NCBI RefSeq assembly: GCF_963678975.1
Contig: NC_089276.1
Location: 25,403,059 to 25,467,058 of the forward strand
Length of the DNA stretch: 64,000 bases
DNA from: Dysidea avara
Taxonomy: Eukaryota; Porifera; Demospongiae; Dictyoceratida; Dysideidae
Direction: 5' to 3'
The notes under the pieces: generated by a model
The model's input: only the letters and a program-made list of their open reading frames with translations
Database searches by the model: none
What the model was told of the DNA's origin: nothing
Shown: positions 557 through 57,200 of the stretch, piece after piece
Layout of the letters: every line of letters begins with the position of its first letter
Position numbering within the stretch: the stretch's first letter is position 1
Made by a program: the position numbers and the translations under genes

Positions 557-3500
557 ATAGGGTCCGCAAACCGAAAAATGAACTTTACAAATCGACCCCC
601 TACCATTGTGGGATGTTCATCGTAACATACCATTGTTAGATCCACCATGAAACCAGAAGCACAATTGTTGTCTTCTTAGAAGTATCAAATTTTGTATCTC
701 ACAAGACGTAAAATTTAGTTTTAAAATGTCATGCTCCACACAAATGACTAGATGAAGCTTGCTACTTAGCCAGATCTTTTCTAGAGTCGTTGTAGTTAAA
801 AGTACACATAGCAGTAAGCAAAATGACTTGTTTGATTCCCAGCACAGGACTGCTTTCTTTCAAAAATCACAAAACGAAGCACGATTTTTCAAATTCAAGC
901 TGCCCTACCAGCCAAGACAATAAAACCAACTATTCTTCACAGTATTCTGATAAGGTTGGGTGTATAGTCTATCTATGCTGTAAGTCTGGAAAGAATCTGA
1001 GACTTCTCACCATCTGGGTAATGAGCGTCAAAATTTTTGCGCTTCATTCCACAGGATTCTCTCAATGACACTGAAGTCCCTTCCAGCACCTCTGATGCCG
1101 CACTGATCACCTAATTTTGTTTAGAATGATGATTAAAAGATGGACCAAAATGTTTGACAGTAGTAACAGTCGTTGTTTCTGTGATTTAATATGATATAGT
1201 ATTCCAGCAGCTCGCCAGGAGCCCCACCTAGCTCGATTTAAAATGAGTGTTTTTTTCAGTTAATTTGGAGTATTTTACAACATGATGATGCTGTAGGGTG
1301 ATCTGGTAAAGATTTGAAGTCACTGTGGAGCATGAAGGGTGAAGTCAGTATTGCTGCCTCCAGTGTTCTAGAGCTTCGCACAACGCATGGAGGATATCGA
1401 TGAAATAATAATTAACAACCACTGGCACCAACTGTCCAGGGACATCTTTCGCCATCATTCCAGTCTGCCATTGATGGGTATTGTGGCTGCAGAAGTGTTG
1501 AAAATGACTAGAAGGCACAATATAATTCCCAAATGTTGCAGAATATTTTGACGCTCGTCACCCAGATGGTGAGAAGTCTCAGATCCTTTCTAGACTTACA
1601 GCATAGACAGACTATGCATCCAACCTTATCACAATACTGTGAAGAATATTGGCTTTTCTCGTCTTGGCTGGTAGGGCAGCTTGAATCGAAAGTTTTGTGT
1701 TTCATTTTGTAATTTTAAAAGAAAGCAGCCCTGTGCCGAGAATATAGCAAATTATTTGCTTACTGCTGTGTGTACTTTTTAACTACAACAACTCTAGTAA
1801 GGTCCCCAATTAAAATAATCAGCTTTCATCAAACAATTTCTTTACTACCGCAGGATACTTAGCTTGTTGTACTGATATTTGAACCACTACAAATCAGAAG
1901 CTGCGAGTCTTTTAGATTGAGAAATCGGCACATTGTATTTTTGCGTATAGAGTAAAAACATGGAATTGTAAGTGCAGTTTCTTGCAAAGGACTGAGTTGA
2001 ACTTTCTTATTAGCTGTATGTTATCTTAAGTTGTTGTGCTGTGCAAACATGCTTAGTAATGGCTAAACGTCTAGCCGGGTGGCTTACAATGCTCGTTTTT
2101 GTGACTGCAAAATCATGAAAAATGTGTTTGAGTTGCTCTGGCTCCTACCACGAGAGAAGCCAGATCTTCCTCACAGCATGGTCATGCAACTGGATGTTCC
2201 CTCAGTCTATAATGCAAATTTGAAAAGAATCCTAAATTGTATGCTATCTGGCTGGTGACGACGAAATATTACAGTGATTTTATGAAAAATAATGCAGCCC
2301 ACTGCTTGTGCAATTGCAACTACTTTACTAATTGCAACACTAACCACTTACACTTTAAATATATCAAACTGGACGGCACAAAGCTGCAGCTGCTTTGGTG
2401 GCAGAGATAGCTGACGTCCCAAATTGGCGATAAAATATTTCAATATCACCAGCCAGATAGCATACATCCTTGGATTCCTTCCATCTTTGCAGTATAAACT
2501 AAGTGAGCATCCAACCATGTCACCGTGTGGTGAGGAAGATCTGGCTTCTCTCATCGTAGGTGGTAGTGCATTCAAAACAATTTTTTTTATGATGCTGTTT
2601 TGAAGAAAACCTTGTGCAAGCAATACAGCCAGCCATTTGTCAATAACTATGCACGTTTGCAGAGCATAGCAAGCCTAGATAACACCTAGCAAACAAAAAA
2701 GCTCAAACCATATCTTTGACGGTAGCTAGAAACTGACCTAGGCCTAGAGTTTCTAGCACCGGTTTCTAGCTACTGTCAAAGAAATAGTTTGAGCTTTTTT
2801 ACTTGCTAGGTGTTATCTAGGCTTGCTATGCTCTGCAAACGTGCATAGTTATTGACAAATGTCTGGCTGTATTGCTTGCACAAGGTTGCTTTCTTCAAAA
2901 CAGCATTGTAAAACATTGTTTTGAGCGCACTACCATCTACAACAAGAGAAGCCAGATCTTCCTCACCACATGATGACACGGTTGGATGCTTACTTAGTCT
3001 ATACTGCAGAGATGGAAGAAATCCAAGGATGTATACTATCTGGCTGGTGATATTGAAATATTTTATCGCCAATTTGGGATGTCAGCTATCTCTGCCACCA
3101 AAGCAGCTGCAGCTTTGTGCCGTCCAGTTTGATATATTTAAAGTGTAAGTGGTTAGTGTTGCAATTAACCTAAAATTAGTAAAGTAGTTTCAATTGCACA
3201 AGCAGTGGGCTGTATTACTTTTTGTAAAATCACTGTAATATTTTGTCGTCACCAGCCAGATAGCATACAGTTTAGGATTCTTTTCAAACTTGCATTATAG
3301 ACTGAGGGAACATCCAGTTGCATGACCATGCTGTGAGGAAGATCTGGCTTCTCTCATGGTAGGAGCCAGAGCAACTCAAACACATTTTTCATGATTTTAC
3401 AGGCACAAAAATGAGCCATTGTAAGCCACCCGGCTAGACGTTTAGCCATTACTAAGCATGTTTGCACAGCACAACAACTTAAGATAACATACAGCTAATA

Positions 3501-30150: not shown

Positions 30151-32646
30151 ATGGAAAGTTTCAGATTAAGTAGGATTACCGCTGATAGACTCAGGTCTCC
30201 AAGAGAAATATGGGAAAAATATATTTGTCAACTGTGCCAGTTTTTGTTGGACGATGCGGTACAAATCGCGTGTGGGCACAGATTGTGCAAGGAATGCGCG
30301 GAATCTAGTTTTAAAAGGTAAGTGTAGTAGTGTTTGGTTTTGAGACGGAAGACTAGTCTGTACATCCTAAAAGGGAAGCACGAGCTGTGAGAATGTGAAT
30401 GACCCGTGTATTGTTAATAACGCTATTTTCGCAGATTGTATTGTGTCATGTTTCGTGTCATTCAGCCCTTAGTACTTGAACTAAGCGTGACTCGCCCTCT
30501 GTTTTACAAGTGTGCTCGCTCGTGTGAGACCCTAATGTGGCGTGATGTGGCGCCTTTTTGGAAGCGTCCTACTTATTATTGTGGTCGTTTATTTAAACTT
30601 CCGGAAAATGCCTAGTTTCGTGTGCGCGTTTTCAAGTGTTGGTATTAAATTGCATGACCAGATCCCGGTTGTTTTGCTTAATCTAGTCATAGATATGCTA
30701 ACCCCAGTTAGTATATTTATGATCTAGTGCAATACAAATCAGTACGGCTGTTAACATGGAAGTTTCATACCCTCACAATGTAGTTAGCTATTAAGCAACA
30801 TTTTGAACTTGAACTAGAGCCGATTAAGGATGTGCATTCTGAGTTATGTAGGCTATTTTAATAGAATCTGCCTGCATTGCGCTATTTGATGAGACTAAGG
30901 TTAAGTGGCCTAATTGCTTTATGTTCATTAGTTGGGTAAAATTTAGTGAACAGCCATCCCCATTAATCTGATAGATTTTACTTTCTTTATACAGATACAT
31001 GCAAGCTGTTGTATATTCTTGTTATAGAGAGGATAACCCAATGTGTCCAGTAGATGAAGATGGTGAGACACATCATATGATCCCAGATGATGATATAGAG
31101 GAAGGCACACAGGTATTTCATTGAGCATGTGCTCACTAGAACATTTTTACAATGAATTTTGATGTGTAGAAATTCTTCCCGGATAAGTTTGCACAACGCG
31201 ATATCAATAAGCTCAAGGTGAAGTGCCAATTCTCCAAGTGTGATCAAGTTATACTAATAAAAGATTTAAAGGTTTGTTAGCTATTACTATTACAAAATTC
31301 TTTATTCATGTGATTATTATACAGGAACACTGTTGGTCATGCCCACATGCTGGTGAAGTTTGTGAGTACTGCAAACAGTTTATCCCTCGAGAAGAGGTAC
31401 AATAGATCAGTATATTGTACTAAAATAGAGAATATCTTTGTGTTTTAGGTGCTGACTCATACAGTTAGCTGTCCTGAAATGAAGAGACATTGTCCTTTAT
31501 CAGATATAGAATATTTTCTTGATAGTGACAATGATGCAAGGCAATGGGGAGATAAAATAGCTGAACTCACAAATACAATAGAAAAATCATTATCAAAATG
31601 TAGAGGGATCAATGTAAGTGCTTGTACTAAAGAAGTGGTGGAGTCACTGTTTGTGTATACTGTATATGTACTTCATTTTTGAGAATCAACTTTAATATTT
31701 TTTTCTTTGCCTTTAGTTGGATGCTGCTGCTTTTAAAACTCACTTGGACAGTAAACATGCCGATCATATTTCAGCATTAGTGGCACATTTGAACTTGTTA
31801 ACAATAAATATTGCAAAACTGCAGTCTGAAAAACATTCAGATACTAAATATGAAAAAGATATTGGTGTGGCAAGGAACAGACTAGTATTAAAAGCTGTGG
31901 GAGGAGCTGATGCAGTTGAAACAGATGGAGCTGCTGAAGTTTCAATACAGTTTAAAGCATTAGAGGAAAAAATACATATGATGCAAACGAGTATAGATAG
32001 TTTGAGAAAGGACTGTAATATGGTGCACAAAGAACTAGTAACAGCACAGAACGATTTGGCTATAGCCAATGATGATAATAAGAATTTAAAATCCAAGGTA
32101 GATTTCTTCGAACAAAAGCTTGCAACCAGAGAGCAACAACTGGAAGAAAAGGATTTCCGTCTTTCACTCCTGGAAGCCGGAAATTATGATGGAACGATGA
32201 TATGGAGAGTAGGAGGCTTTGACTCACGTACTAAGGATGCTCGTGATGCAAGATATACATCGATTTTCAGCTTACCATTCTACACGAGCAAGTATGGGTA
32301 CAAAATGTGCTTAAGGTTGTACCCACAAGGGGATGGAATGGGCAAGAATACCCATCTCTCCCTGTTCTTTGTTGTAATGAAAAGCGAGTATGATAGTCTT
32401 CTGCAGTGGCCATTTATCAACAAAGTTACTCTGACACTGATCAACCAGACTGGTGGACCAGATGTCACCGACACATTCAAACCGGATCCCAAGAGTAGCT
32501 CATTCCAAAGACCGAAAACAGAAATGAATGTGGCTTCAGGGTGTCCCCGGTTTGTGCCACTTGATGACTTGCACAGAAATGGTTTTATCAAGGATGATAC
32601 AATTTTCATTAAAGTGAAAGTTGAGCAACTTCCAACAAGATACTGA
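30151..32646 (+). CDS. TRAF-family adaptor (RING, TRAF zinc fingers, coiled coil, MATH)
   Basis: Six exons with GT-AG borders: 30151-30317, 30995-31112, 31170-31271, 31325-31396, 31449-31613, 31717-32646; 517 residues, all junctions in frame. RING: C26-x2-C29, C41-x-H43, C46-x2-C49, then C73-x2-D76, the C3HC3D form typical of TRAFs, but with 23 rather than about 11 residues before the last pair. TRAF-type zinc fingers at about 112-172 (CQFSKC, CWSCPH, CEYCKQ, CPEMKRHC). Coiled coil about 284-360. MATH/TRAF-C domain about 366-513, beginning DGTMIWRVGGF and ending FIKVKVEQLP. TRAFs trimerise, bind receptor tails through MATH and act as E3 ligases in NF-kB/JNK signalling in the cytoplasm. Poly(A) signal AATAAA at 32698-32703. 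The ATG at 30151 is the first in frame before the RING. Orthology to a particular vertebrate TRAF cannot be set by eye. Confidence 0.92.
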
Positions 32647-35811: not shown

Positions 35812-36265
35812 CAATGCAGTTTTTATCTACCATGCCACCTAAACAAGTTTGGTGACTGACAGATGTAATTTCTCATACAATGGAATTGGTAAAAGTATTG
35901 TCTTCATTGGTGGTAGTTCAGAGAAAGCAATTTATTTGTACTTGCAAAATTCAATGTTCATTGGCAATGAAGGAGTACCCATTTACCATTCATAATAAAA
36001 GCTATACATTAATGGTGATGTGTTGTTTAAACATAACAAGGCGAACACTGGTGGAGGAGTTTTTGGTAGTGGCTTAGCTGTTGTATTTAAGACCAAATCT
36101 AATGTCACCTTTTACAAGAATTCAACAATCGCTGATGATTTATTATTAACAATTCAAGAATGTATTTTGCAGTCTGTCATAAGTTCTGCAAATAGTTGTG
36201 CTAAATCATTTGCCAGCACATTATACTCCATAGAAAGAGCCTATGTGAACATGGCAAGGGTGTAG
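35812..36265 (+). pseudogene. beta-helix receptor pseudogene fragment, 5' part
   Basis: Aligns with 49630-50080 of the large beta-helix gene (shared GATGTAATTTCTCATACAAT, TTATTTGTACTTGCAAAATT, AATGTCACCTTTTACAA-type words). Frameshifts and stops have destroyed it; the two short frames at 35880 and 36020 are pieces in different registers. Confidence 0.85.
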
Positions 36266-47245: not shown

Positions 47246-47287
47246 GTGTGTGTATTGTATCAGGCCAGGAGCTTATATACTCCTGGC

Positions 47288-47560
47288 TGTATGTATGTAT
47301 GTATGTATGTATGTATGTATGTATGTATGTATGTATGTATGTATGTATGTATGTATGTATGTATGTATGTATGTATGTATGTATGTATGTATGTATGTAT
47401 GTATGTATGTATGTATGTATGTATGTATGTATGTATGTACATGCATGCATGCATGCATGCATGCATGCATGCATGCATGTATGTATGTATGTATGTATGT
47501 ATGTATGTATGTATGTATGTATGTATGTATGTATGTATGTATGTATGTATGCATGTAGTA
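47288..47560. repeat. (GTAT)n microsatellite with internal (GCAT)n
   Basis: About 150 bp of GTAT, then about 38 bp of GCAT (47440-47477), then about 75 bp of GTAT. All six frames are open because the unit has no stop, giving long but meaningless ORFs. Confidence 0.97.
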
Positions 47561-48645: not shown

Positions 48646-48921
<276 letters not shown>

Positions 48922-48971: not shown

Positions 48972-49007
48972 CCAATTATACACATATGGTTTCTGATAGT
49001 ATAAATA
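48972..49007 (+). promoter_or_regulatory. CCAAT and TATA box before the beta-helix gene
   Basis: CCAAT at 48972-48976 and TATAAATA at 49000-49007, 80 nt before the ATG at 49087. This spacing suits a normal core promoter, so the gene was expressed at least before decay. Confidence 0.5.
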
Positions 49008-49086: not shown

Positions 49087-52000
49087 ATGCTTACAGAAAG
49101 GATTGCAATCATAATTTTACTTTGTGTGATATTCACAAAGGCTGAGGAAGTTTCTTTTTCTCAAGATATTACTTCTGGTTCAGGGACAGTGTTTGAACAG
49201 AAATGCTGTGAAATTGGAGATCACCCTTTTTACTCATTGGATAATGCTGTCCTTAACATTGCTAATGATACCGTACTAAAAATAATTGCATCAAATGTTG
49301 TACTAAATTCAAAAGTTAGTTTAAAATATCTTGAGAATGTTTTAATAATTGGACACGCAACTCCCACTGTGAGCTGTAACTCGATTGGAACAATAATGCT
49401 TTCCTCCTGCAACAATGTGGCAATTAAAGGTATCAATTGGGAGAATTGTGGCTCTAGAAATAAATCATTTTATCCAGGTGGAATCAGCTTTTATAATTCT
49501 TCTATCATCACCAGTCAACACTGTACTTTTAGTTCTTCAATGGGGCTGTGCTAATCTCAAAACCTTCAAGAAATCTATACATCAAAAATTGCAAATTCGC
49601 ACATAACAGTCAACACAAAGGTCATGGTGCAGCAATACAGTTTTTAGCAGCTCATATACAAACACGTTTGATGATTGATAGATGTAATTTCTCATACAAT
49701 GGAGCTGCTAAAAGTATCATCTACATTGGTCGTAGTTCAGAGAAAGAAATTTATTTGTACTTGCAAAATTCAATGTTCATTGGCAATGAAGGAGTCCCCA
49801 TTTACCTTTCACAACAAAAGCTACACATTAAAGGTGATATGCTATTCAAACATAACAAGGCGATTACTGGTGGAGGAATTTATGGCAGCAGCTCAGCTGT
49901 TATATTTAAGAACAAATCTAATGTCACGTTTTACAATAATTCAGCAATCACTGATGGTGGAGCAATGTTTATTAACAATTCAAGAATGCATTTTGCAAAA
50001 AACTCAGTAATAAGTTCTGCAAACAACTTTGCTAAATCATTTTCCAATGCACTATACTCCATGAACAAGACCGCTGTATTATTTGGTTGTAACACCATGG
50101 TAACATTTAAAAGCAATAAGGCTGGTGATCGTGGGAGAACTCTGTACTTAGAAAATTGCAACGTACTATTTGATGAAATTCAAAAGTGATATTTAGTAAA
50201 AACAGAGGTAATTTCGGAGGAACAGTTTTCTCTTCTAACAATTCAGAAATATCATTCAATGGAAATACAGAAGTGATATTGTTCTAACATTTCATTTAAA
50301 GGGAACACAACAGTAGCTTTTAAAGGTAATGAAGCCAGCAAGCATGGAGGAGCTGTTGAGTCTATTGAGAACTGCAGCATTACATTTGATGGGAACTCAA
50401 AAGTAATATTTATTAACAATCTTGCTACATTCGGAGGAGCAGTTTACTCTACAATTTATTCAAATATATCATTTAATGGGACCACAACAGTAATTTATAA
50501 AGGAAATGAAGCCAGTAGATATGGAGGAGCTGTTCAGTGTTAGGAGCAATTAATTGTGATGAAAAATGTAACATCACATTTGATAGCCACTCAACAGTAA
50601 CATTTTATGACAACAGTGCCTCATTTGGAGGAGCAATTTATTCTTACAATTATTCTATTATATCATTTGATGGGAACACAGCGGTGACATATAAAGATAA
50701 TAAAGCTAGTGAAAATGGAGGAGTTATATTTTCTTTCAAGAATTCCAGTATCACATTTAATGGAAACTCAAACACAACATTTAAAAGCAATATAGCTAAC
50801 TTTGGAGGGGCGGTACAGTGTAATAAATATTCAGAAATATTATTTGATGATTACACAACAGTGACTTATAAAGACAACAAGGCCAATGGAGATGGAGGAG
50901 CCATTTCTTTTTATGACAACTGTGATGCAATATTTGATGGAGATGCAAATGTGACTTTTAGTAACAATAGAACAATAACAGCAGGTGGTGCTATGTCTTT
51001 CAATAGGTACTCACTTGTATTATTTCAAGGAAATGTAGCAGTGGAGTTCACCAATAATAAAGCCAAAGGGGCTATTAAGCTTCACCAGACAACTATGAAT
51101 CTTGTAATGGACTCACTGGTAACGTTTAACTATAATTCTGCTAATAGGAGTGGTGGAGCCATATATATCTCAGTGATAACTTTACTGTGACATTTGAAAA
51201 TGAGTCTGACGTTACATTTCATCAAAACAATGCATGGGGTCATTTATGGTGAACTGAAACAAACCAACCAGAGCAAAATCTTATCAACCACTACAAGTGT
51301 TGATTTTAGCAACAATACAGCTCTTGAAGGTGATACTTTATATGCACTTACAAGTGTCATGTGATGAAACATGTTTGAATAGCAGCATAGTAGGTGAAGA
51401 AGTGACACACAGTTACCCTCCTCGTCACCTAGCTTTATAAAAGCCAACCACTTGTGTCAATACTACCAATACGCTGAACTATTGTGATACCTACTTTGTT
51501 AGTAACATAATGCTTGGTCAAAACATTAAAGTCAATGCCTGTGTGCTAAGCTTTAATAACAAACATGCTGGAGGTGTAAACTTTTTGGTAAGTGGTGAAA
51601 GTCAACATCATAAACTTGATGGTACATGATTTGTGCTAATAGCCTGTAATCTTTTCGAAGGGATCAATGTAATAGGAAAGGAGATTTCTGATAAAACTAC
51701 TTTCTCAATGTCCATCACATCATACAGTAACAGTGAGTTAGAAATTGCTGTCAGGCTAATAGCAGAACTATCACCATGTCACCCTGGTTTTCACTATGAC
51801 ATTAATACTCAATAGTGTGCATGCTATGATGACAATGAGGTTGTGTCTTGTTCTGGTAGCACATCAATAATTAAAAGAGGTTACTGGTTTAGTATTGTTC
51901 ATGGTAAAACCACAGTGGCACTTTGTCCTTACAATTACTGCAATTTTGCTTGTTGTGAAACAACTAATGGATTCTACCACCTATCACCATTGAGATCAAA

Positions 52001-53189
52001 TCAGCGTAGTTCACACAGATCTGGAACTGTTTGTGGTAGTTGTAAAGAAGGCTATACTCTCTCATTTGATTCCACAAAATGTGTAAATTTCAACCAATGT
52101 ACAACTGGCCAGACAGTACTGGTGATGATGTTGTCATTCACATACTGGATAGTCTTGGTTGTAGTAGTGTTTGTAGTGACATATTATCATGTTAAGATTG
52201 GTCATTTCTATGCTATTACATACTATTACAGTATGTTGGATATTTTACTAGATCAAAATTTGTATGTATCACAAGGACTGTTTACTGTTGTTAGCATTAT
52301 GTCTGGTACAGCAAAAATGACTCCACAATTTCTAGGGCAACTTTGCCTGGCAAAAAATATGAGTGGAATTGATCAACAAGTCATTCATTACATACATGTT
52401 ACCATCATTGTAGGAATGATCTGCCTGTCAGCCAGAATGTCTTACAGGTTTTCGTTGTTTGTTAGTCGGGGAATTATCCGTGTAATTTGTTTTCTACTAC
52501 TGTTATCATACACTTCTGTGGCGACATCTTCATTGCTACTATTGAGATCATTGACATTTCATAATGTGGATAATACATACACTTACCTGTCACCTGACAT
52601 AGAGTATTTCCAAGGTCGTCATTTTCCATATAGGATAATAGCAATATTATGTACACTCATTGGTCTACCACTTCTGCTTTTGCTTGAGCCAGTTGTTAAT
52701 CACAAGATCAACTTTACTACATTTAAGCCATTGCTTGACTAGTTTCAAGGATGCTACAAAGACAAGTATCGTTTATTTGCACCTTACTACATGATCTGTC
52801 GACTTGTGATAATTTTAATAATCATTGTCAATTCAACCAACAACAATACTACCCAAGTTCTATTACTTGTTGCTAGTACACTTCTAGCCTTGACACAGGT
52901 AATCATCAAGCCATACAAACACAAAGCTCTAAATATTTTTGATGGAATGATGTTACAAATAATGATTTTTGCCTCAGTGATATCACTTTTTGACAGTTTT
53001 GGCACAAAAGGATTATCAGCAGTTATAATTCTTTTAGTAATACTACCCATGATAGCATTTGCTGCACTGGAACGGATTGTGTATAAAAAGAGCATCAATA
53101 AGATTCTCACATACTGCAAACCCAAACTTGTTACTGAAAATGACAACCATTATGAAGTAGCCCCCAGAGTGATATTGGCATTGTTATAG
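49087..53189 (+). pseudogene. beta-helix ectodomain / multi-TM receptor-like gene, broken
   Basis: Intronless as far as visible. ATG at 49087 starts a signal peptide (LTERIAIIILLCVIFTKAEE). Residues onward form a right-handed beta-helix with many copies of a motif like F-x-x-N-x-A-x-x-x-GGAI/V, resembling POMP (polymorphic outer membrane protein) repeats. A Cys-rich linker follows (SGTVCGSCKEGYTLSF, about 52020-52080), then eight or nine hydrophobic segments (52120-53090) and a short tail. Such proteins would sit in the plasma membrane with a large ectodomain; ligand unknown. Lesions: single-base-type frameshifts near 49538 and 50177; further register breaks near 50281, 50540, 51172, 51250, 51355 and about 51440; in-frame TGA 51627-51629 and TAG 51813-51815 and 52740-52742. 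From about 51441 to the final TAG (53187-53189) the frame is otherwise intact. Partial dead copies lie at 35812-36265 and 36480-36730. Assembly errors could explain some frameshifts but not the three substitutions. Confidence 0.82.
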
Positions 53190-53194
53190 ATGAG

Positions 53195-54170
53195 ACACTA
53201 TGAGGAAGAATGCTACCATAGTTGACATGTGAGTATGTAACTATTATGTATTTACAGGATTTATACACAAATGTACAACTAGCTAGCTACCATGCTTTAG
53301 AACATGTGAGCATCTCAGCTCGCATTAGTGTAGTTCTCATCTAACCCCTAAACGTCTATGTTGTGAAAAATTCTACTATTGATAATCACACATTTACCTT
53401 TATTTAGCAGCAGGAAGAGAGATTCCAATGATACAACTGAGATTCATAATACTATGATACATTACCGGGAATCAATTATGGAGGGATGAATAATGAAGAC
53501 TGACATGGATCACACAACCAGTAAAAATACTAATGCACAATTTAGTTAGACTTGCACATTTTAGTATGACAATATTAGTTTACTTTGATTTTCACTGCAT
53601 TATAATTTATAGTCTAGCATATATATACTTAACAGTATGCTGTGTTTTGCAAGCTACAATTCTAGATATATGTGCTCTTAATCCAACATATGTCCAGACT
53701 CAAGTTGTACAGTGATGAAGTATATACTACACCATATTATATGACTTCATTTCATTGCACTAGAGGCTTGTGCATGTGTATGGCTGTGTGTGTCTGTGTG
53801 CATGTGCGTAGCTGTGTGGGCATGATGTGTACGTGTGATGGTACAGGTGCAACACACACACACACACATAAACCCTAGCCATGCCCTTCCCACTCACCTG
53901 CACCCCAACGCATCTACTTTATCCAACTGCAGGTACCACCCATGCCACCCTAACATATTATCCCTCTCTTGACGTATCCACCTGGGGCTATGCATCCACC
54001 CTTTGGTTCTGCCTGTTTTTGCATGCACCCCCCCCCCCCCACACACACACACACACACACACACACCATCACACTTCAGTATTGTGCAACATATATTTAC
54101 TCATTATATTGCATCACATAGTGCAGCAGAAACTGATGCAGGCTGGAAGTGATTATTGTTATTAACACTT
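53195..54170. other. non-coding, with CA and C/CA microsatellites
   Basis: Contains (CA)n at about 53852-53868 and a C-run plus (AC)n at 54029-54065. The short frames across these (53672, 53881) are not genes. Confidence 0.5.
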
Positions 54171-54289: not shown

Positions 54290-57200
54290 TTACTTGCAAT
54301 TGTTCTTTACTTCACAAATGTTATTTAAACTCAGCATCAGGTTTGGAGTGAGATTTTGCATATGTCTTGAAAATCTGCTAAAGTCAATAACATTTCTGGC
54401 AGTTGCTTTTGACAGCAGAAGATGCTTCACTTCCCATGGCTTAAGTGAAGGACACTGTTCTAACAGTAATGCAACACTTCCAGTCACAAATGGAGCAGCC
54501 ATTGATGACCCAGATTGTATATCATAACAATTATTACAGAATGTGGAAGTACTATTGATGTTAGTACCAGGTGCAAACAGGTCTACACAGGCTCCTCCAT
54601 TGGTCAAAGGGCTGATGACATCAACAAAATCTTTGGATGAATTTCTCTTATCTGTAGCTGCCACTGTGATTAATCCAGGGATATTGGATGGTGTGTATTT
54701 ACATGAATCGGTTACTTTATTTTCAATATTTCCTGAAATAGTTACCACCGTAACACCTTGATTCATTAGATTCCACACAGCTCTTTCAATAGACCTTTCT
54801 TCCTTTGAACCATATAAAGACAAGTTCACTACAGCTCTCCTGTGTGATCTGTTGTTGGCTTTATTTAACACACACTCCAGTCCTTGTATTAAAGTACTAA
54901 GTGTCCCTCTCTTGTAGCAGTCCAGTACCCTAACACTGTACAGGGTGACTCCTGTGGCAACTCCAACACTAGCACCTGTTATTATGCCAGCAACATGTGT
55001 GCCATGACCATTACAGTCTCTTCCTAACATCTGCTGGCCAAACAAGTTGTCTATTGGGTCACAACCTTGTAAAGAAAACACAAGGTACACACAATTCACA
55101 ATTGTAATGCAGTTGCTTACATGGACTGATATATACTGTGACTTTTAAAACAATATATTTTCACAACAGTAGGGTTAGTTTATATAGGAGTGGAGTAGGT
55201 GGTTATATGGGATGAATCTGTAAATGATTCTCAGGACATGAGAGATTGAGATCCTCTAATATAGCAGTCAAATAGTCTAATAAAACAGTCAGGCACTGCT
55301 GAATCAGACTGTGTGAACTGTAAAACAGTTAAAAAATTAGCTGCAGAATTCTTCAACAATTTAAAATATAGTTTGCATTGTGATTTGTGATTTTCTGCAT
55401 CTGTGCATATGTATCTGAGGTGTGCGCATATGACTATACCATGAAAATTTTCTCTCACTTACTGTAGTAAAGGCCCTGTGAAATATTGTATGCAGTCAAG
55501 TAGCAGTATCCATGTTGTGATACACTCTTACAGTGGTATATAGCAGTGCCAGGCCTTAGCTATATATGTCATTATTGCATATGAACCATAAAGCTTAGTA
55601 GGTAAATATAATTGAAATGTAGCTCAGTGATATACAGCACATTTCAACCTCCATAATGGAAATTGATAGTCAACTGTGAATCAACTTTCCTTGGCCTAAT
55701 GCTGTAAATTAAAATACATGGCATTGAAGTGTCTGTTCTATTTTATAGAGGACATTGATTTCATGCCCTTGGTTAGGGAGAGATGTGCCTGTGATTCTCT
55801 CTTCATTTGAAATTGCAGTAAGTAGTATTGCTAGCTCCATCATGCAAAAACTGTAACTAGGGGGAAGAAAGGCATACTGAATCCACTGTATTTTGCCACC
55901 AGGGGCAGTTTCAGAGATCAGCAAAGGAAGGTGCACCATGGTAGTAGGTATATATGGAACAGGGGATCTGATGCAGCTCCCCAAAAGCTAAAGGTACTTC
56001 ATATGTTTCAAGACTGAAATTTTTGGTACGGAATACATAAATAATAATAATTAATTATGCTTTATAAGTTATAGGTGGTCTGCATTGATCAAGAGTTGTA
56101 GGGATCAGTGACAGTCATAAGTAGTTCAGTTATGAGTCAATTGTCATATAGAATGGCCATGGAATACAAAGAACTATGTGCACTTTATCCTCAATATTCC
56201 TAGTAGGCTATTATGTGCCCATGGGATGGTGCTGCAGATGGCAGTCATCACACATACTTAGCAATAGCTGTGGAGGATTCTTAATAGTGTTACATGTGGT
56301 GACTGTTTTATTAGAGTATTTGACTGACTGCTCAAGTAGCAGGCATTCAAGTATCCAAGATTTTGTAATTGATAAAAATATTCTCCGTATATTTCCCAAT
56401 AGAACCCTGGCACAAAATAACAGTGCACATTTAACTTGGGGTTGCTCCGATCCGTCACCTGAGCTCCTATGGCCATGAGGATGAAAATCGCTATGGGGCC
56501 AAGTTTGTCCATATGCTGATCATCATAGAAATCTTAATTTTATCATGCCCATTAAGTTGTGTGTCAATATATCCAGAATGCATTGAAAGTTTAAACATAC
56601 TTTAAAATGCATAGTTGGTTTGCTCAAGTTAGCTATTTTCAACTATTTTTCTGATGGTTGTGTCTAAACTCAAAAGTATAAACTCATGAGATTTCAGTTA
56701 AAAAATAATTGGGCTGGAATGCCTACTATTAGCCAGGAGTATCTTGATTAAAGTTTGGTATTGGGGGAGGGATCATATGCCCCCATGCCCCTCCCTCCTA
56801 CCTGGATCTGCCACTGAGGGTGTCTGGAACAAATCCAAAGGAAAATAAAGGAATACATTGCTGCTACAGCTGATTTCTTATTGTAAGTCCCTTTAGTGAG
56901 CATGTAGAGGCAGAGCCAAGTGACCAACTACAAATTTCACATCTGGCACCTGCCACAACAAAAGAAATAAGAAATAAAAGTGAAGAATTATGTAACACCA
57001 TATGCAGATGATAACTGAAACTTTACAGAGGAGTCATTCACTTTAAGACTTTAGAGAAATCTTTGTCATGCTAATTAGTAGTGATTATAGTATTAGAGTA
57101 GTTGACAGCTTAATCAGAGTATCTTGATCAGGTACATGTAAATAAAGAGAAATGGACTGGCTATCATTTCTATCACCATACATGCAAAGACACTAAGGTG

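Follow-up and report, generated by a model that had tools for sequence, protein, structure and literature searches.

A large family of genes joining Pmp-type repeats to a multi-spanning membrane module, and a probably recently inactivated two-exon member

The DNA analysed here, a stretch of 64,000 nucleotides referred to below as the window, appears to carry a two-exon gene that was recently inactivated, one member of a large family of surface receptors that is clustered locally and undergoes birth and death, a reading to which we would give a probability of about 0.6. The gene lies at positions 49087-53503, and the following features were recognised in it and around it.

48985..49007, forward strand: promoter-like stretch with a TATGGTTTCT box and TATAAATA, from the sequence aligned with paralogs
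49087..51440, forward strand: signal peptide and Pmp-type beta-helix ectodomain, in which the frame changes seven times and meets a stop at 51438
51441..51764, forward strand: membrane-near stalk, with an in-frame stop at 51627
51765..52118, forward strand: Cys-rich knob (CGSCKEGYTL), with a stop at 51813 and one family-invariant Cys changed to Arg
52119..53067, forward strand: predicted membrane module of about nine helices, with a stop at 52740 and two three-residue losses in conserved stretches
53068..53228, forward strand: first part of the cytoplasmic tail, with two frame changes
53229..53234, forward strand: splice donor GTGAGT, within which the apparent stop TGA (53230-53232) falls
53408..53503, forward strand: remnant of exon 2, which codes for the conserved C-terminal tail, with one frame change
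35834..36247, forward strand: another ectodomain fragment of the family, smaller and likewise broken

Much of the architecture described in the initial annotation was recovered. A hydrophobic N-terminus is present at the ATG at 49087, in keeping with the signal peptide claimed there, and the F-x-x-N/GGA(I,V) repeats are confirmed by matches of 50519-51187 to PF02415 (58.5 bits, cut-off 20.6, E 2.4e-16) and TIGR01376 (56.6 bits, cut-off 15, E 1.1e-15). The Cys-rich segment CGSCKEGYTL is present as well, and the count of eight to nine hydrophobic segments agrees with a paralog profile of ten peaks, two of them weak. The idea of a single open transcription unit ending at 53189 had to be abandoned, as exon 1 contains nine frame changes and four in-frame stops, a tenth frame change falls in exon 2, and both the donor and the exon-2 remnant lie beyond that end. 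When the piece 50519-51187 was modelled without an alignment it gave a pLDDT of 72.7 and a pTM of 0.75; Foldseek returned no match to this model at E 0.001 (best E 0.065), and beta-solenoid proteins made up many of the 50 matches listed. Because Foldseek gave no match at this threshold, and because AlphaFold2 is reported (PMC11795689) to yield confident but unrealistic solenoids for repeats, the claim of a beta-helix fold is based on the PF02415 match.

The genome to which the window belongs (550.8 Mb in 108 contigs) was searched with a 308-residue piece covering the Cys-rich part and the first helices, and at least 128 scored family places were found, the window copy included. An uninterrupted frame of at least 1000 codons is present at 104 of these (range 1000-3300), reaching at least 1400 codons at 87 places and at least 2000 at 21, with the longest at 3300; the frame is shorter than 1000 codons at 16 places, and at eight a stop falls inside the match. 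Two further searches gave at least 88 and 87 places, of which all 88 and 86, respectively, were already among the 128, the new one being on contig C8. All searches together detected at least 132 places, which falls short of the full number in the genome. A figure of some 900 copies was rejected, since the first-look candidates (911, 1075 and 1100) were not accepted as counts, the scored places being 128, 88 and 87. A genome search with PF02415 gave a single match among 150 scored of 2105 candidates, as expected for a repeat model of only 19 residues. The corresponding search with PF06011 pointed to four places, one of which is L020 while the others were fetched as L031-L033. L033 is a shorter close copy of the family, and L031 and L032 branch deeply: their Cys-rich and transmembrane (TM) core is 31-43% identical to that of the members with which it was compared, and Pfam gave no PF02415 match in their scanned ectodomain parts. 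In L032 (1-2341) the frame runs past the usual tail into further hydrophobic segments.

These searches bear directly on whether the beta-helix and membrane parts always occur as separate genes, which is not the case: 104 of 128 places lie in uninterrupted frames of at least 1000 codons, and in all 22 close members that were fetched (L009-L030) the repeats and the TM part share one frame. Chance fusion is ruled out by these intact paralogs. The proposal of a eukaryotic family of surface proteins, in which an expandable beta-helix ectodomain is attached to a multi-TM part, is thus upheld, although the gene boundaries given with it are not.

Intact members, as read from their sequences, follow a common order: a signal peptide comes first, then the Pmp-type beta-helix repeats, a stalk and the Cys-rich knob, and finally about nine helices with a cytoplasmic tail. 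The frame opens with an ATG and a hydrophobic stretch in 20 of the 22 members, judged by eye; in L025 and L028 these were not seen in the same frame. Each member contains 22-49 GGxx-type motifs, spaced at 29 residues (265 times) or 30 residues (222 times), and PF02415 was matched with E values of 1.8e-41 to 1.2e-52 in all four whole close members scanned (L010, L020, L027 and L028). The Cys-rich segment has a weak EGF-type likeness (factor Xa light chain, E 0.21, by PDB profile), and DUF7630 was matched in eight of 18 members (Pfam, best E 0.0029). Mean hydropathy of 18 members has ten peaks, of which the second and third are weak (1.05 and 1.15), and together with the loop charges this fits a predicted topology of nine helices that has an extracellular N-terminus and a cytoplasmic C-terminus. 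About nine helices also speak against a 7TM receptor, a fold that had been considered for the C-terminus, and no 7TM family was among the Pfam matches of the 18 members at E 1. A single-sequence structure model of the TM part was unusable (mean pLDDT 44.5).

The gene model acquires a second exon, encoding a putatively spliced tail that is overlooked when open frames alone are read. Paralogs have in common the sequence GT(A/G)AGT where the frame seems to stop, following ...NATIVDM or ...ICEM; it is exact in 18 of 22 members and present as GT(A/G)AG in three more (L018, L019 and L028), while L013 reads through the donor position. As a background, the looser T(A/G)AG follows two of 575 ATG triplets in downstream DNA. 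Beyond the donor little aligns except in close pairs, and comparison of the downstream DNA of members revealed a second conserved block, the tail ...HYRESFMEVMDEIED, which was found in 12 of 22 members and is broken in the window. In these 12 members the exon-2 tail sequences, for example IRRRDSNETIVIHDTMIHYRDSIVEMMNNED or the IIGNRDEDVTCYRESF type, end in a stop, and all 12 have an in-phase (C/T)AG acceptor giving an AT/GT...AG/ junction, some with several candidates. Depending on the acceptor chosen, the predicted introns measure about 190 to 900 bases and the whole cytoplasmic tail about 72 to 102 residues, the last part coming from exon 2. In the other ten members exon 2 was not seen within 0.9-1.0 kb of downstream DNA (eight members) or 0.5 kb (two members). 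An intronless family, as first read from the open frames, is rejected in view of the donor and exon 2, and what results is a definite, testable model of a two-exon gene with a tail that would be spliced on. Endocytic motifs were considered for the tails but hardly any were found: the DExxxLL type is absent from the exon-1 tails of the 22 members, and YxxPhi-type matches occur there only in L013, L016, L017 and L018.

Comparison of the parts of the gene shows that they evolve at different rates. Median pN/pS (153 pairs of 18 members, four that are near-copies or lack the N-terminus being omitted; pairs with pS <0.7) was 0.61 for the N-terminus, 0.53 for the stalk, 0.29 for the Cys-rich segment, 0.33 for the TM part and 0.50 for the exon-1 tail. 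In eight single pairs, dN/dS of the ectodomain was 0.22-0.49; that of the TM part was 0.14-0.35 in the six pairs where it is defined, and the ectodomain value was higher in all six. The exon-1 tail exceeded 1 in L011/L029 (2.83) and L024/L025 (1.18), on few changes. Judged by these ratios, the membrane part is strongly conserved and the ectodomain changes more rapidly. The ectodomain also varies by gain and loss of repeats; internal duplications within it, up to 95.9% identical (L019), show how its length changes. Positive selection for recognition is not supported, because no median or long-stretch dN/dS of the ectodomain exceeds 1. In 112 of 153 pairs the N-terminus exceeds the TM part in synonymous difference, and this excess may be due to gene conversion of the 3' half or to error in the alignment of repeats. 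General shuffling of ectodomains and TM parts was rejected, as the nearest neighbour is the same for both parts in 13 of 18 members; in L019/L024 there may have been local conversion of the N-terminus.

Expanded families of surface receptors are believed to serve invertebrates that have no adaptive immunity in dealing with microbes and self. The receptor function, recognition and ion conduction that we infer for the present family could be brought together in a simple mechanism. A rod of Pmp-type beta-helix coils would sit on the Cys-rich knob, fixed in the membrane by about nine helices, and the variable solenoid of this rod would bind surface ligands, whether microbial, self or particulate. 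The constant knob, membrane module and tail would then convert ligand binding into a common signal, which might pass via an ion-conducting or tension-sensing membrane module and/or via partners docking on the HYRESFMEVMDEIED-type tail.

The alternative that survives best is that the family consists of adhesion or matrix proteins, whose rods stick cells or particles and whose nine helices are a mere anchor. We regard this as unlikely, while granting that Pmp repeats are described as adhesins in Chlamydia in passages of PMC6701047, that the tail is short, and that Pfam scans of the window pieces and the members found no signalling domain. An anchor, however, would need only one helix, as in the single span often reported for trichomonad Pmps in the same passages, whereas in the present family conservation is strongest in the polytopic part (median pN/pS 0.33, with 0.29 for the Cys-rich segment) and extends to the putatively spliced ends of the tails.

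Upstream of the window copy, TATAAATA is found at 49000-49007, 87 bases before the ATG, and a (T/C)ATAAA box occurs in the 130 bases preceding the ATG of 15 members out of 19, compared with 178 of the 880 stretches taken as background; three of the 22 members were left out for want of a usable start. Of the TATA/CCAAT promoter proposed earlier the TATA-like box is retained, on the strength of these 15 paralogs, and CCAAT is dropped, as the aligned paralogs do not share it. Close to the TATA-like box, eight of 19 members have a TGGTTT-type box by the pattern used, for which no background was taken. Contig C2 carries 73 of the 128 places, where 13.4 would be expected by length, and for 69 of the 128 another family place lies within 100 kb. 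The members L016 and L017 are almost identical in sequence, as are L015 and L030. On contig C8, between 4.06 and 4.85 Mb, nearly identical members (L015, L016, L017 and L030) occupy several places in both orientations, which suggests a recent segmental duplication or an assembly duplicate.

It could also be supposed that the genes belong to a mobile element or a virus, the copies being cargo or proviral, and the many copies, giant exons and dead window copy would suit such an origin. We consider it improbable, however, since the conserved intron near the 3' end and the shared promoter-proximal DNA argue against retrocopies, the clustering on C2 fits tandem duplication, and no relative was found in viral contigs by the peptide patterns used.

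The window copy itself is a pseudogene, a dead member of the family by the evidence of its frames and stops, and the reading of 49087-53189 as a working copy is not supported. It has ten frame changes and four in-frame stops within 49087-53503. Three-frame translation and the positions of family motifs give the path 1-0-2-0-2-1-2-0-2-1 for exon 1, that is, nine changes, with the tenth in exon 2; the stops are at 51438 (TAA), 51627 (TGA), 51813 (TAG) and 52740 (TAG). A Cys found in every one of 18 aligned members has also been lost from the copy, as have six residues of conserved TM stretches, in two losses of three residues each. Over the stalk, Cys-rich and TM parts, dN/dS against 12 paralogs is 0.23-0.30 for the window copy and 0.20-0.25 for L010 (or L011) against the same 12, the window value being higher in 12 of 12, and on these values the inactivation looks recent. 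That the gene is intact in the animal and its lesions are assembly errors is very improbable, for although frame changes are a usual type of long-read error and dN/dS is still low, this same assembly yields clean long frames at 104 of the 128 places, and the copy has four in-frame stops, has lost an invariant Cys and six conserved TM residues, and has another broken family fragment 13 kb away.

That fragment (35834-36247) resembles 49662-50100 of the main copy, from which it lies 13 kb upstream, and is more broken. Just downstream of the dead copy, on the other strand, is a subtilase-family frame (54290-55099, reverse strand; PF00082, E 1.4e-36). Elsewhere in the window there are a TRAF/MATH-domain frame with a coiled-coil part (31717-32646, forward strand; PF21355, E 5.5e-47) and a frame resembling ribosomal protein L14 (20953-21417, reverse strand; PF00238, E 1e-12). 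Long simple-repeat tracts at 47250-47560 and 48720-48920 produce spurious ORFs, the latter tract ending about 80 bases upstream of the TATA box of the dead copy. The segment 48140-48511 is 78.5% identical to 2002-2351 of L027, a distant family locus, in the opposite orientation, and is probably an interspersed repeat.

No description of such a family, or of a solenoid ectodomain combined with a polytopic, possibly channel-like membrane part at such a family size, was found in the literature searched, whose scope excluded preprints and most subscription papers. It is conceivable, though less likely than not, that the genes constitute an undescribed and very large family of recognition receptors in an early-branching animal, comprising some 100 or more intact two-exon genes in which a length-variable Pmp-type solenoid is joined directly to a remote FLC/Pkd2-like channel module bearing a constant spliced-on tail, and serving to distinguish microbes, symbionts or self.

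With regard to the membrane module, PDB profile searches gave no convincing solved relative; the matches to factor Xa (E 0.21, Cys-rich segment) and to TPTE2 (E 0.014, last helices) are too weak to count as relatives. Similar membrane segments may occur in unnamed invertebrate proteins, which we take as a lead only. A sub-threshold likeness to PF06011 was seen in the last helices, the best match, in one of 18 members, reaching E 0.00081; in the genome of the window PF06011 gave four matches (E 0.03-0.49) of seven scored, none over the gathering cut-off, and scans of L010, L020, L027, L028, L031 and L032 gave none at E 0.1. On this sub-threshold likeness the module is perhaps remotely FLC/Pkd2-like. 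The peptide patterns used found no relative in the prokaryote contig collection.

Among known systems, the closest in its repeats is the chlamydial Pmp (PF02415, TIGR01376), with which the family has the FxxN/GGA(I,V) repeats in common, PF02415 being above cut-off in window pieces and in all four members scanned. Passages of PMC10715098 describe the chlamydial protein as a beta-helix with buried motifs, to which the family repeats are alike. In contrast to it, the present genes are eukaryotic and have two exons, a Cys-rich knob and a predicted nine-helix module. The autotransporter beta-barrel PF03797 was not reported at E 0.1 in L010, L020, L027 or L028, where a predicted helical multi-TM region occupies the C-terminus in its place, and Pfam scans of the window pieces found no autotransporter domain. 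Pmp repeats are also reported from other bacteria, archaea and trichomonads (parts of PMC10715098 and PMC6701047). Trichomonad Pmps resemble the family in being eukaryotic surface proteins with N-terminal Pmp repeats and a cytoplasmic tail, but in many cases cross the membrane once and carry endocytic motifs (passages of PMC6701047), where about nine helices are predicted here. Fission yeast Pkd2, of the PF06011 family, is described as having a nine-helix membrane module, a signal peptide and an extracellular domain, an arrangement that the one predicted here may resemble, and is said to pass calcium under stretch (passages of PMC11277609); the putative lipid-binding domain of FLC/Pkd2 proteins, however, was not found in the present family. 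Sponges offer a parallel in receptor families such as the SRCR proteins, in which surface recognition proteins of an invertebrate have expanded massively (PMC10855680); these are built of other domains and are likened to the present family only in their way of working.
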